DNA of 64,000 nt from Cyanobacteria bacterium SIG27 (GTDB lineage Bacteria > Cyanobacteriota > Vampirovibrionia > Gastranaerophilales > Gastranaerophilaceae). The notes beneath the pieces are model-generated. The model saw only the letters and a program-made list of their open reading frames with translations, was not told the DNA's origin and searched no databases. The translations under genes were made by a program, and so were the position numbers. Within the stretch, counting starts at the first letter, position 1. Each line of letters starts with the position of its first letter. The stretch is from the NCBI GenBank assembly GCA_015152565.1, contig SUTT01000006.1:1-64000 (forward strand), written 5' to 3'. Positions 50,891 through 63,438 of this stretch are shown piece by piece.

Positions 50891-50921
50891 ATATATAAAG
50901 TATATACTCATTACATAATTG
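50891..50921 (-). promoter_or_regulatory. 31-bp promoter element, copy A
   Basis: In gene direction: CAATTAT, six variable bases, then the 18-mer AGTATATACTTTATATAT. It shares all 25 fixed positions with copies B and C. The likely -10 box is TATACT inside the 18-mer, giving a leader of about 60 nt before the coiled-coil gene. AGTATATACT is itself a perfect palindrome. Confidence 0.6.
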
Positions 50922-58621: not shown

Positions 58622-58906
58622 TTAAATTTCATCGTCATCCAAAAAAGATGCACTAAAGACTTCTTGTGAATTAAGCGAATCGATAAAGTGGTTGTATCGC
58701 TCCATTCTCAATTTTAGCCAGCTCAACATTGAATTTGAACCAATAATTTTTACCACACGAACGGGAGCAAAGCAGTTTCTTGTTGTGTTGTATTTTTCTT
58801 CCATAAATGTTTGAGCTTTGCAATTTAGCTCATCAATTAATTCGTAAAGTGTTTTAAGCCAAGCACTCTGGACTGATAATTCGTCTACTTTAAATTCTAA
58901 AATCAT
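58622..58906 (-). CDS. small hypothetical protein (94 aa)
   Basis: A soluble, mainly helical protein. MILEFKVDELSVQSAWLKTL starts with a short strand and helix; a middle FAPVRVVKIIGSNSMLSW and a polar, acidic end (SFLDDDEI) follow. GGTGGG close before ATG 58906 may be the ribosome site. It lies 87 bp after the stop of the calpain-like gene on the same strand, but with no obvious shared promoter. Function unknown and no family recognised. It could be a partner of the protease upstream, by position only. Confidence 0.55.
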   Translation of the reverse strand: MILEFKVDELSVQSAWLKTLYELIDELNCKAQTFMEEKYNTTRNCFAPVRVVKIIGSNSMLSWLKLRMERYNHFIDSLNSQEVFSASFLDDDEI

Positions 58907-58993: not shown

Positions 58994-60478
58994 TTATAAG
59001 TTAATATTATATACTACTTCCTTAAGAGTTGCGTTTGGATTGTCTTTTAAATATGCCATTGCTTTATCAAATTCAGCATCACTTAAATCTCTAGCAAGTA
59101 CAAATACGTCGCTTGCTGATAAATTATCGTATTGTAAAATTTGATAGTTATCATCAATGCGTTTGCCGATTTCATCAGTCATTTCGACAAAGGTATATTT
59201 CAAATTGCCGTCTTTATCTACTTCGCCAAGCTGGTATCCACTTCTATTGTCGCCATTATCCATATTAAATGTTAATGTTGTTTTAGTATCTTTATTTCCT
59301 AAAAATCCCGAAGTATAGTTTTTATCTTCGTCAAAGTTAAAGCCACCACAGAAGCCTGAATCGTAAATGTATTCATATCTTACTTTTGATAGTTCGTTTT
59401 CGTCATTGTAGTAATATTTATATGTTCTTGTATATTTTTCTTCTTCAACTCTTTCTTCTGTTCTATCTACCATACCATTTGAATTGTAGAATGCTTTTTG
59501 TTTGAAATAGTTTACTTTTTCATTGTTTTTTGATAGATCACACACATCCATTCCTTGAAAAGCTTTAAAAAACTCTTTTTTGGGTAAAACTATCTCATGT
59601 CCTGAATCCCAAGGATTTATTACTGTTACATTGACGCCATCATAATCCTTGACTGAATAAGCATGGTTGCCAACTATTGGAGTTGGTATGCCATTTGCAT
59701 TAAGTACGACGCTTGATTTGTCTGTATCAACTGCAACTGCAAAATCTTTTTTATTATTATTTTTAAATTTTTCAAGTTGCTCTTCCATTTCTTCAACTGT
59801 ATTATAACTTTCACCCATTTTTCCTGTAATTAAATACATTGCTGCTCTTGACCAGCCACCTGTAGTTGAAGAATGTCCTGGTTTTGTAGGATCCTCATTT
59901 GTTAACCAATGCAGCACACTAGGCGCGTCTTTCGATAGTTCAATTGTTCCATTTATGCAGTCATCTATCATTTTTTCTAATGCAAGTTCAAATATTATCA
60001 TATCATCGTCACCGCTTGAATATTGAAATGAACCTTTTGTTCTTGCTATCTCATCATCCGTTACCACGTAATCACCACATGCTGTATGAACTACTGTATG
60101 GTCTGATTTATAGTCTAGTGACTCTCTGATTAATTTTTTGCCTTCTTGTGTTGTATTGAGCGCATTTACTCCAGATAATAACCAACAATTTCCTGTCCCA
60201 ACCTGATTTGTATCTCCAATTTCACCATCTTTCGATTCTCCATCTAAATCATCAATTATTCCGCCGATAATATCTGCTAAACCTGGAAATAATTCTGCTC
60301 CGCATTGATTTATTTCTTCTGGTCTTGTTTCTTGTGGTGTATCTTCTATGTTTAAAAAACTACTAGAATTGTCTTCTGTGTCTACTGGCAATCTGTTTTG
60401 TTGTGCTGTGTTTGAAGTTTTTTCAAGCCCAAATTTATCTGCAAATAATACACTTATGTTGATACTATTTGATGACAT
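58994..60478 (-). CDS. calpain-like cysteine protease 1 (family C2-like)
   Basis: A 494-aa protein. The catalytic triad is visible: Cys98 in VGTGNCWLLSGVNAL, His272 in VGNHAYSVKDYD and Asn288 in VTVINPWDSG, in the order and context of calpain papain-fold proteases (QGxLGDCW / GHAYS / NPWG). Immediately before the Cys comes DDLDGESKDGEIGD, resembling a calcium-binding loop. The first 65 residues are polar and end before the domain. The C-terminal 200 residues have Tyr-rich beta repeats (RTYKYYYNDENEL), then a helical end conserved in the paralogue. No Sec signal. The 31-bp element and a GAGG site precede ATG 60478. Confidence 0.82.
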   Translation of the reverse strand: MSSNSINISVLFADKFGLEKTSNTAQQNRLPVDTEDNSSSFLNIEDTPQETRPEEINQCGAELFPGLADIIGGIIDDLDGESKDGEIGDTNQVGTGNCWLLSGVNALNTTQEGKKLIRESLDYKSDHTVVHTACGDYVVTDDEIARTKGSFQYSSGDDDMIIFELALEKMIDDCINGTIELSKDAPSVLHWLTNEDPTKPGHSSTTGGWSRAAMYLITGKMGESYNTVEEMEEQLEKFKNNNKKDFAVAVDTDKSSVVLNANGIPTPIVGNHAYSVKDYDGVNVTVINPWDSGHEIVLPKKEFFKAFQGMDVCDLSKNNEKVNYFKQKAFYNSNGMVDRTEERVEEEKYTRTYKYYYNDENELSKVRYEYIYDSGFCGGFNFDEDKNYTSGFLGNKDTKTTLTFNMDNGDNRSGYQLGEVDKDGNLKYTFVEMTDEIGKRIDDNYQILQYDNLSASDVFVLARDLSDAEFDKAMAYLKDNPNATLKEVVYNINL

Positions 60479-60505
60479 TTTCTATCCTCTTTTTATGTCG
60501 ATTAA

Positions 60506-60536
60506 ATATATAAAGTATATACTATGTAAATAATTG
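60506..60536 (-). promoter_or_regulatory. 31-bp promoter element, copy B
   Basis: Same fixed 25 positions as copies A and C: CAATTAT, six variable bases and AGTATATACTTTATATAT in gene direction. It ends 27 bp before the start of calpain-like protease 1. A further upstream stretch (AATATTTCTTTACAAAAAGA) is shared with copy C only. Confidence 0.62.
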
Positions 60537-60561
60537 TCTTTTTGTAAAGAAATATTTAAAA

Positions 60562-60593
60562 AAACAAGCGAGAACTATTGCTCTCACTTGTTT
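60562..60593 (-). terminator. intrinsic terminator of calpain-like protease 2
   Basis: CAAGCGAGA pairs with TCTCACTTG (one C-A mismatch), extended by A/T pairs and followed on the minus strand by TTTTTTT. It lies just after the stop at 60614 and just before promoter copy B, so the two protease genes are separate transcripts. Confidence 0.8.
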
Positions 60594-60613
60594 GTAATTT
60601 TATTTGATTTTCA

Positions 60614-62128
60614 TTAGTCAATGTTATTCATAACTTCTTGGTATGTGGCATTTGGGTGTTGTTTTAAATAGTCTATTGCTTTATCTAGTTGTGTATCGTT
60701 TAAATTTTTCGCTAAAGAAAAAATATCTTGCGCTGAAAGCTGTTCGTAACTTAGCATATCGTTATCTAAAATTCTATCTGCAATATCTGAATTCATTTCG
60801 GTAAATGTATATTTTAATCCGCCATTACTATCTAATTCTCCAAAATATACATTGGTTATGTTTCCTTCATCATCATAATTTCTTATTAAAGCAATATTAG
60901 TGTCTTTATTGCCATTTTGAGCATATGTGCATTTGCCATCAGCATTCCATTTGTATTCTAAATATCTTCCATCAATGTAATTTGCATTGCAATTAATATC
61001 TGTCAACTCCCCTTTTTTGTTATAGTTGTATGTGTATTTTGTGACATTTCCTTCTTTGTCTTTATCAATAGATTTTTCCAAATCTCCATTTTTGTTGTAA
61101 TACATTTTTGGTCTAAAGTAATCTTGTGTCGGATTTGCACTTGATAAGTCGCAAGATTCTACGTCAGAACAATATTCCATAAATGTTTCTCTGTCTAGTA
61201 CGATATCCTTACTTGAATCCCAAGGATTAACAATTGTAACGTATTTATCATCAACATTTTTGACAGAAAATGCATGCGATGTTATTAATTCAACATCATT
61301 TCCGTGTGCATCTTTAACGACATATGAACTTTTTTTACCTGATTCATCAATATTTGCTTTAAACCCACAAGTCATAGTGAAGTTTTTGTTGCCATTTTTG
61401 GAAAAAGTATCTAATTGAGCAGATATATCTTCACTTTTAGTGTAGCGTTTTGCCATTTTTCCGGTCAATATGTAAATTAAACCGCCAGAATTTCCACCTT
61501 CTGTGGAAGATTTTCCTGTTGTAGTTCCTTGTTCGCCTTTTACTGCATTTTTTAATAAATCACTTGCTTCGGCATCTATGCTTACTCTACCATTTGCAAC
61601 ATCGTCAATAATTTTTTCGACCGCAAGTTCAAAAATAATCATGTCGTCGTCGCCATCAGAATATTGTCTATCTGCCTTGGTTAATCTAACTTCTTCGTCA
61701 GAAACTACATAATCGCCACATGCAGTATGTACAACAGTGTAACCTTTTTTATATTCAAGGGCATCAGAAATCATTTTTTTGCCCTCTTGGGTGTAGCTTA
61801 GTGCATTTACACCAGCCAATAGCCAACAGTCACCAGTTGCTCCCTGTTTTGAATTTCCAATTTCGCCATCTTTGGACTCGCCATCTATAATATCTTTCCA
61901 GATGCCTTTTATATTATTCCAGAAATTATTATCAACAGCCGAACATTGCGTTACACCAATATCCGAAAAATTAAAATTATCTGAAATTTGCGGAAAAATT
62001 GGTTCATTTGTATTTAATTTGCTTTGTTCACCACTTTTTAATGATAGAATTGTTGTGCCATGAGACAAATAGTCTGGATTTAATGTGCTTTTTTTTGATG
62101 AATTTTTTCCAAAAAGTGAATTTATCAT
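60614..62128 (-). CDS. calpain-like cysteine protease 2 (family C2-like)
   Basis: A 504-aa paralogue of the neighbouring protease. The triad is Cys101 in GATGDCWLLAGVNAL (closest to the calpain GDCW consensus), His285 in SHAFSVKNVDD and Asn301 in YVTIVNPWDSS. The Ca-loop-like DGESKDGEIGNS precedes the Cys as in copy 1. C-terminal Tyr/Asn-rich repeats (VTKYTYNYNKKGELTDINC) resemble RHS/YD-type beta repeats. The last 40 residues (LSAQDIFSLAKNLNDTQLDK) match copy 1 closely. The first 70 residues differ from copy 1. No Sec signal. GAGG before ATG 62128; own promoter element and terminator. Confidence 0.82.
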   Translation of the reverse strand: MINSLFGKNSSKKSTLNPDYLSHGTTILSLKSGEQSKLNTNEPIFPQISDNFNFSDIGVTQCSAVDNNFWNNIKGIWKDIIDGESKDGEIGNSKQGATGDCWLLAGVNALSYTQEGKKMISDALEYKKGYTVVHTACGDYVVSDEEVRLTKADRQYSDGDDDMIIFELAVEKIIDDVANGRVSIDAEASDLLKNAVKGEQGTTTGKSSTEGGNSGGLIYILTGKMAKRYTKSEDISAQLDTFSKNGNKNFTMTCGFKANIDESGKKSSYVVKDAHGNDVELITSHAFSVKNVDDKYVTIVNPWDSSKDIVLDRETFMEYCSDVESCDLSSANPTQDYFRPKMYYNKNGDLEKSIDKDKEGNVTKYTYNYNKKGELTDINCNANYIDGRYLEYKWNADGKCTYAQNGNKDTNIALIRNYDDEGNITNVYFGELDSNGGLKYTFTEMNSDIADRILDNDMLSYEQLSAQDIFSLAKNLNDTQLDKAIDYLKQHPNATYQEVMNNID

Positions 62129-62152
62129 ATATTCCTCGTTATGCTTGATAAT

Positions 62153-62183
62153 ATATATAAAGTATATACTTTGTAAATAATTG
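62153..62183 (-). promoter_or_regulatory. 31-bp promoter element, copy C
   Basis: CAATTAT, six variable bases and AGTATATACTTTATATAT in gene direction, ending 25 bp before calpain-like protease 2. It differs from copy B in only one of 31 positions, and both are preceded by AATATTTCTT(T/A)ACAAAAAGA. Confidence 0.62.
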
Positions 62184-62211
62184 TCTTTTTGTTAAGAAAT
62201 ATTTTGCAAAT

Positions 62212-62268: not shown

Positions 62269-63357
62269 TTATTTTGTGAAAATTCTAACAGATGTTTGTT
62301 TTAGAGTATCATTTTCTGTTTTGATGAATGTTCGCTCTGTTACTAAGCCGTTAAATATCTGCCTTGCAATCACTCTATTTTCTTTTTGAGCTATAGAAAC
62401 AATTGATTTATCAATTTCATTTACATAATCAAGTCTTTTAATTGAGCCATTTGGATTAAAATCAACTTCAAACGCAGTATTTCCTGCTATATCTTTTTGT
62501 GAAGCTCGAATGTAGTCGCCATTTTGATTGTTTCTTATTACTTCACATCTTGTACCAAGAATGTTAGTGTATAAATATGTTGATGTTCCATCTCCATTAT
62601 CTGTGATTTCTGGTTCACCTTGAAGTTCAATGTCGTTTGTTAAATTGTTAACAATTCCTCTAGCATTTCCTTTGAAACCATCGCCAATTATTCTAAAGAA
62701 CATTAAGTTTGAAGCTTTTGCTGTATCTTCAAGCGCTTCTTTTAGTCCTTCGGCTTTTGTTGTTTTAAATTTTTCTAGCATTTCTTCTTGCATTTCAAGG
62801 ATTTCAGGTAGCATTGCAAGTCCTCTTTGTGCTATGTTTTCCATGGTGTACGCTTCTTCGTTATCTAGCATTTCTTCCATATCGGGTAAATCTTCAATAT
62901 CTGGTAATTCTATAGTTTCAAGTTGAGCTTTTGTTTCTTGAATACTATTTTCTAGGTTTTGTATGTAATTTTTATATTCAAATTTAACAAATGCTGGGAC
63001 ATGTTGTGCTGCAATTGTTGTTGCACCTTTTGCAGCTGCAGCTGTTTTCAATGACATAATCACCATATCAGCACCCATATCTGATTGTTCAAAATCTTCA
63101 TTAGTTACATCGTATTCTGGTTTGATATCAATTGTTCCTTCTTCATCTTCTGTAAAAAATCCGTATTCTTCCAATCTATCAAAAGTTGAATTTATCTGCA
63201 TTTGCATATATGTTTCTGGTGTAAATCTTATTTCAAGACCGTTATTTTGTAAGCTCTCACTTCTGTTTTTATTTTCATTTTCTATTGGGTTTGAAGCGTT
63301 ATTTCCTTTAAAATTTAAAGTTCTATAAGAAAAATTAGAAACTGGAGAAATATTCAT
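62269..63357 (-). CDS. lineage-specific protein of unknown function
   Basis: About 362 aa. The N-terminus MNISPVSNFSYRTLNFKGNN has an NFKG motif I would associate with many proteins of this lineage. The middle is helical and Glu-rich (DLPDMEEMLDNEEAYTMENI). The C-terminal third forms beta strands (GEPEITDNGDGTSTYLYTNI then CEVIRNNQNGDYIRASQKDI). A short hydrophobic stretch near residue 115 (ADMVIMSLKTAAAAKGATTI) is too short and polar to be sure of a membrane helix. I start at ATG 63357, which has AAAGGTG 7 bases upstream; an earlier in-frame start at 63396 would add a Cys-rich, atypical peptide. Confidence 0.55.
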   Translation of the reverse strand: MNISPVSNFSYRTLNFKGNNASNPIENENKNRSESLQNNGLEIRFTPETYMQMQINSTFDRLEEYGFFTEDEEGTIDIKPEYDVTNEDFEQSDMGADMVIMSLKTAAAAKGATTIAAQHVPAFVKFEYKNYIQNLENSIQETKAQLETIELPDIEDLPDMEEMLDNEEAYTMENIAQRGLAMLPEILEMQEEMLEKFKTTKAEGLKEALEDTAKASNLMFFRIIGDGFKGNARGIVNNLTNDIELQGEPEITDNGDGTSTYLYTNILGTRCEVIRNNQNGDYIRASQKDIAGNTAFEVDFNPNGSIKRLDYVNEIDKSIVSIAQKENRVIARQIFNGLVTERTFIKTENDTLKQTSVRIFTK

Positions 63358-63438
63358 TAACACACCTTTCTTTAAATTACAAAAACAACAAAACAACTGA
63401 AAGAAAAAAATTGCCTAAAAATATGTTATTATTTATCT

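Follow-up and report, generated by a model that had tools for sequence, protein, structure and literature searches.

Calpains, known best from animal cells, are a textbook family of eukaryotic proteases under calcium control. Here we report that the window (the whole 64,000-nucleotide stretch of DNA analysed) carries two intact, tandem, minus-strand genes whose products belong to the same protease family, are predicted from sequence and structural modelling to be protease-competent, and form part of a clade that has expanded in the order Gastranaerophilales. Our combined view, held with considerable confidence, is that both proteins would be competent for catalysis as cysteine endopeptidases of the calpain family (MEROPS C2, clan CA), with possible Ca2+ coupling at site 1 and with flanking modules that may direct them. 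The family itself is a known one; the wider surprise lies in the order-wide expansion and in the fusion of some relatives to EF-hands.

Two paralogues with a calpain core

ORF2 (positions 60614..62128, minus strand) encodes a 504-aa calpain-family (C2) cysteine protease with Q95, C101, H285 and N301, and ORF1 (58994..60478, minus strand) encodes a 494-aa paralogue with Q92, C98, H272 and N288; NCBIfam has no name for either. The protease domain occupies residues ~75–330 of ORF2 (61139..61906, minus strand), as delimited by profile matches, and residues ~72–318 of ORF1 (59525..60265, minus strand), as placed by the family alignment and a profile match (E 1.8e-82). The two proteins are 44% identical over 448 residues (BLASTP) and probably arose by local duplication, as sister sequences in the family tree (support 100/99). 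Because their alignment starts only at residues 56 and 59, respectively, the N-terminal ~55–60 residues are unalike; the sequence-only reading had noticed this difference and put its extent at 70 residues.

Both proteins match Pfam Peptidase_C2 (PF00648) above its curated cut-off of 23.8 bits (29.0 bits for ORF1, 30.4 bits for ORF2), and the same model matches 78 of 86 family members at E<=0.01. A PDB search with a family profile built from 23 protease domains returned calpains exclusively (best E 2e-13), and profile-profile alignment with calpain-1 covered the entire core (hhalign, E 5e-11). The AlphaFold2 model of ORF2, computed with 64 sequences, has a mean pLDDT of 82.8, with values >90 in most blocks of the protease region and with residues 1–67 disordered. 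In Foldseek searches with this model, the top 29 PDB structures were all calpain cores (E 1e-6 to 5e-5). TM-scores against core-only calpain structures were mostly 0.45–0.50 (target-normalised), and the lobe details therefore either differ from those of known calpain cores or are imprecise.

Gln95, Cys101 and His285 (ORF2 numbering) are identical in 64/64 aligned sequences, while position 301 is Asn in 59/64 and Asp in the other 5/64; over sets of 64 to 86 sequences, C101 and H285 are invariant and N301 is near-invariant. Since the Pfam cut-off is exceeded and the catalytic columns are conserved across 64 relatives, the likeness to calpains is not due to chance. Calpain C2 membership is thus seen in sequence score, in the order and conservation of Gln, Cys, His and Asn, and in a papain-like (clan CA) fold. 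The earlier description of tandem calpain-like proteases with intact triads, made from the sequence alone, had coordinates and frames right and agrees with Pfam, the PDB profile match and the AlphaFold2 model. It had named an unrelated fold or poor conservation of Cys, His and Asn as grounds for abandoning the idea; the best matches of the model are calpain papain-like cores, and the residues are kept in 64/64, 64/64 and 59/64 sequences.

Catalysis would be carried out by the two-lobed papain-like core with its complete Gln/Cys/His/Asn machinery; by analogy with ordinary papain-like catalysis, the Cys would attack the peptide bond, with the His as base and the Asn orienting the His. That the proteins are instead decaying or inactive and merely bind partners seems to us highly improbable. 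Inactive calpain homologues are known in eukaryotes (PMC4631099), and one relative, L082 (5140-7335), carries an intact protease domain followed by a second, seemingly degenerate one whose Cys position is unlike Cys, but the catalytic positions are all intact in both paralogues of the window and in nearly every relative.

Segment aligned with calcium site 1, and flanking modules

The string DGESKDGEIG lies at residues 82–91 of ORF2 (61856..61885, minus strand) and 79–88 of ORF1 (60215..60244, minus strand), where an Asp follows it at Cys-9 and corresponds in position to Asp106 of calpain-1. It had been noted as a calcium-loop-like sequence about 20 residues before the catalytic Cys; it begins exactly 19 residues before it in both paralogues. 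As an EF-hand loop, this interpretation falls: the spacing departs by one residue from that of an EF loop, neither protein has an EF-hand match in Pfam, and HMMER and hhalign assign the string to the calpain site-1 segment. As a segment aligned with calpain calcium site 1, it stands. The exact string was confined to ORF1 and ORF2 among the sequences compared, and family-wide conservation at the loop comes down to [DN]-x-x-[ILVF], often accompanied by a Gly.

In calpain-2, site 1 comprises Ile89, Gly91, Asp96 and Glu175, and site 2 comprises Glu292, Asp299, Gln319 and Glu323 (Rawlings, PMC4631099); we transferred this numbering to calpain-1 by applying a shift of +10. The site-1 segment of calpain-1 is VDGATRTDICQG, with Gly at Cys-14 and Asp at Cys-9 (checked against PDB sequences), and the family [DN]G-x-I falls on this segment in HMMER and hhalign alignments, with a conserved GDDD motif opposite the site-1 Glu (hhalign). 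Among 94 distinct domains, the loop has Asp or Asn in 88, [DN]G occurs at Cys-13/-14 in 54, and an acid stands at Cys-9 in 31; at this last position, ORF1 has Asp and ORF2 has Asn. By a crude rule applied to sequence, the complete site-1 set is present in ~22 of the 94. The stretch after NPW that corresponds to calcium site 2 is absent across the family (hhalign against calpain-1). Because likeness to site 1 is patchy (22/94) and site 2 is missing, Ca2+ dependence is no more than a possibility for the pair, chiefly for ORF1. In members that keep the ligands, the loop preceding the active-site strand may serve to bring the two lobes into register when Ca2+ binds, which would be likelier for ORF1 than for ORF2.

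In the 84 non-redundant relatives, usually no further domain follows the protease, with a median length of ~50 residues beyond the His; the part ahead of the Cys spans 41 to 1660 residues. ORF1 and ORF2 differ from most relatives in having ~220 residues after the His. In the ORF2 model, this part consists of a beta-rich, Tyr-rich module (residues 338–432; 60833..61117, minus strand) that forms a single-layer sheet, OspA-like and weakly Rhs/YD-like, and of a helical end (residues 447–504; 60617..60790, minus strand), the latter also defined by sequence matches. The helical end and Tyr-rich part seen in the letters alone are thus borne out by the model, and the proposal that the protease is a module within longer proteins is supported by the architectures of many relatives.

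The Pfam scan of both ORFs returned Peptidase_C2 and an RHS_repeat match of 13.4 bits, below the cut-off of 22, and nothing else. In Foldseek searches, the C-terminal sheet of ORF2 gave weak matches to Rhs and Tse5 shells and stronger ones to OspA. The pair resembles Rhs/YD-repeat proteins in its Tyr-rich sheet after the protease, the weak RHS_repeat match and these structural links; however, the sheet is short and scores below the Pfam cut-off, and no Rhs core or shell was seen, so that we do not place the pair among the Rhs/YD-repeat toxins. The helical module was likewise considered as a general tag and rejected, as its clear matches are limited to the two calpains of the window and one same-genus calpain (G007).

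In other relatives, the added domains are of different kinds. N-terminal EF-hands score above the Pfam cut-off in L082 (5140-7335) and L106 (5659-6672), with weaker matches in L026, L052, L055 and L061; LysM occurs in one relative (L060), and annexin-like repeats occur below threshold in others. The AlphaFold2 model of L082 has a good calpain core and a weak N-terminus, so its EF-hands rest on Pfam. In L041 (3003-5897), the C-terminal end that follows a coiled-coil resembled a lytic transglycosylase (SLT) by eye, and Pfam gave no match there. More tentatively, the variable N-terminal segments and the Rhs/YD-like and helical C-terminal modules may choose location or substrate.

Distribution, locus and site of action

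A family profile matched 153 of the 192 Gastranaerophilales genomes at E<=1e-6, and one 2-Mb genome had as many as 8 matches. By hand count, ~40 of the 153 have weak best matches only (E above 1e-25), which makes ~113 genomes a conservative figure; some of these weak matches come from ~253-aa proteins whose alignment begins at position 26. Pfam Peptidase_C2 alone found 33 of 286 genomes and so understates the family. Outside the order, matches (E around 1e-11) were limited to three genomes of a phylum-wide sample. Most named relatives in databases come from Candidatus Gastranaerophilales or Melainabacteria, many from gut and rumen samples, and genomes of the source family carry close relatives of these named proteins, which would place the window in that order. 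In the tree, three records labelled Muribaculaceae or Acinetobacter branch inside the clade, probably because their contigs or bins were misfiled. Proteins of ~253–259 aa (G095, G080, G155 and others) match the profile weakly from position 26 and are possibly a separate compact papain-like family.

The pair lies between a conserved gene for a 94-aa protein (58622-58906) and uvrC, an arrangement found in 0 of 20 same-genus genomes read (in two of them, G016 and G011, uvrC fell outside the stretch read). At this spot, the 20 genomes are nearly empty, carry just a homologue of the 375-aa neighbour (62269-63396), or hold other genes. The pair has therefore either been inserted here as an accessory element or been retained specifically in this lineage. 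The 375-aa neighbour has homologues that evolve fast: in several genomes of the genus, those at this place are 26–33% identical, while the genes flanking those homologues are ~80–91% identical. The 94-aa neighbour occurs in 50 of 58 genomes with 81–92% identity within the genus; it was considered as an immunity or partner gene and dismissed, being widely conserved and having calpains beside it in 0 of 20 same-genus loci. Neighbour clustering of 80 loci revealed no recurrent close partner gene. A phage or plasmid origin found no match, PHROGs giving one weak, unnamed hit (E 0.044), and PADLOC gave no match to a defence system. An anti-phage or toxin-immunity element, in which a triggered protease cleaves proteins of the cell, would fit the accessory position amid conserved genes, but with PADLOC, phage and plasmid matches all absent, a 94-aa neighbour too widely conserved to be an immunity gene and no recurrent close partner, we consider it improbable.

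The regions upstream of the two genes contain copies of a 58-nt repeat, at 62147..62204 for ORF2 (minus strand) and 60500..60557 for ORF1 (minus strand, by sequence comparison); an intrinsic-terminator-like hairpin (60562..60593, minus strand) lies between ORF2 and ORF1. The two regions are 93% identical over the 58 nt, far closer than the coding parts. Both contain the 15-mer TATATACTTTATATA, which has nine perfect matches across the genome (0 for a reversed-pattern control): three in the window (the two within the repeats and one at 50892-50906) and six elsewhere (C12:9246, C21:16643, C21:18052, C35:90, C40:17010 and C42:69108). Because this element precedes all three calpain genes of the genome, at 26–29 nt from their start codons, shared control of the three is suggested. 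It is also found upstream of a gene for a 155-aa protein in the window and of a gene for a 278-aa protein on C42. Several of the other copies have a common upstream context, TGTAACA...CAATT, which may mark a special promoter class.

Hydropathy scans detected neither a Sec signal nor a transmembrane segment in ORF1 or ORF2, as the sequence-only reading had stated for Sec, and no convincing Sec signal in any of 86 family sequences; the sole flagged one (L082) owes its flag to a doubtful start codon. The genome contains a flagellar-type FliP/Q/R/FlhB/FlhA operon that scores as flagellar (C32; L173:8211-14593), a second gene of FlhA-like type, divergent and accompanied by FliE, FliF-like, FliH-like and SLT genes (C7; L174:5184-11136), and a third FHIPEP-type gene with the C-terminal FHIPEP part only (C52; L175:6789-8237); in most of the 25 genomes scanned, FHIPEP matched three times. 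A Sec-independent route thus exists in principle, given the flagellar-type operon and the second FlhA locus, with no tie to the calpains. The neighbourhood of the pair has no gene for a substrate, chaperone, inhibitor, translocator, secretion component or dedicated partner. A short N-terminal motif, M-x-I-x-x-I...F(K/S)G (e.g., MKINPISFGK), recurs on several proteins of the genome (62269-63396; L176:9241-9849, L177:11477-12049 and L175:9391-10764), and ORF2 itself begins MINSLFGK; the motif could be an unrecognised targeting signal.

We regard action in the cytosol and Sec-independent export as about equally likely. A plausible if tentative account is that the proteins are cytoplasmic, possibly calcium-regulated processing proteases that cut intracellular targets, with the extra modules choosing partners. 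The lack of a Sec signal or transmembrane segment, the EF-hands of some relatives and the mostly cytoplasmic location of eukaryotic calpains (PMC4631099) agree with this, whereas the LysM of L060 and the Rhs-like modules point to a role outside the cytoplasm in some members at least, and patchy presence with expansion speaks against a housekeeping role. Just as tentatively, they may be effector-like proteases exported without Sec, perhaps through a type III (flagellar-type) machine, onto host, protist or neighbouring bacterial cells. Sec-less, accessory, tandemly duplicated and modular proteins would suit such a role, as would the FliP/Q/R/FlhB/FlhA operon, the second divergent FlhA-type locus and the similarity that Foldseek found between the C-terminal sheet and the shells of Rhs and Tse5. 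Against export stand the absence of chaperone, translocator or secretion genes adjoining the calpains, the flagellar score of the export operon, the absence of a recognised secretion signal, and the weakness of the Rhs/Tse5 fold matches relative to those of OspA. A broader scenario, in which fast-diversifying calpains across the order, some regulated by Ca2+ through site 1 or fused EF-hands, leave the cell without Sec and act on the host or on neighbours, appears rather unlikely to us; if true, it would mean that bacteria have combined the calpain core with EF-hands independently of the classical eukaryotic arrangement.

Comparison with known calpains

The pair shares with the eukaryotic calpain core (CysPc; calpain-1, -3 and -9) the order and context of Gln, Cys, His and Asn, a two-lobed papain-like core, and a DG loop ahead of the active-site strand. 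It differs in its low identity (~15%), in lacking the calcium site 2 region, and in having N- and C-terminal modules of its own in place of the C2-like and penta-EF-hand domains. Further parallels are the bacterial and cyanobacterial C2 homologues (PMC4631099; Veselenyiova 2022, PMC9380684), which likewise place the C2 domain in varied architectures and some of which keep site 1 alone. In a 2015 survey, bacterial calpain homologues were rare and none had EF-hands (Rawlings, PMC4631099); here, in contrast, they are present in most sampled genomes of one order, with some fused to EF-hands or LysM. The word "melainabacteria" is absent from the text of PMC4631099 and PMC9380684, and none of the papers we searched joins Gastranaerophilales and calpain. 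The initial remark that bacterial relatives are scattered and poorly studied holds for the literature and not for Gastranaerophilales, where the family is widespread. The presence of calpain relatives in most sampled genomes of a non-photosynthetic, cyanobacteria-related gut order alters the known distribution of calpains, and opens their origin and their regulation by calcium to direct testing on small bacterial proteins.
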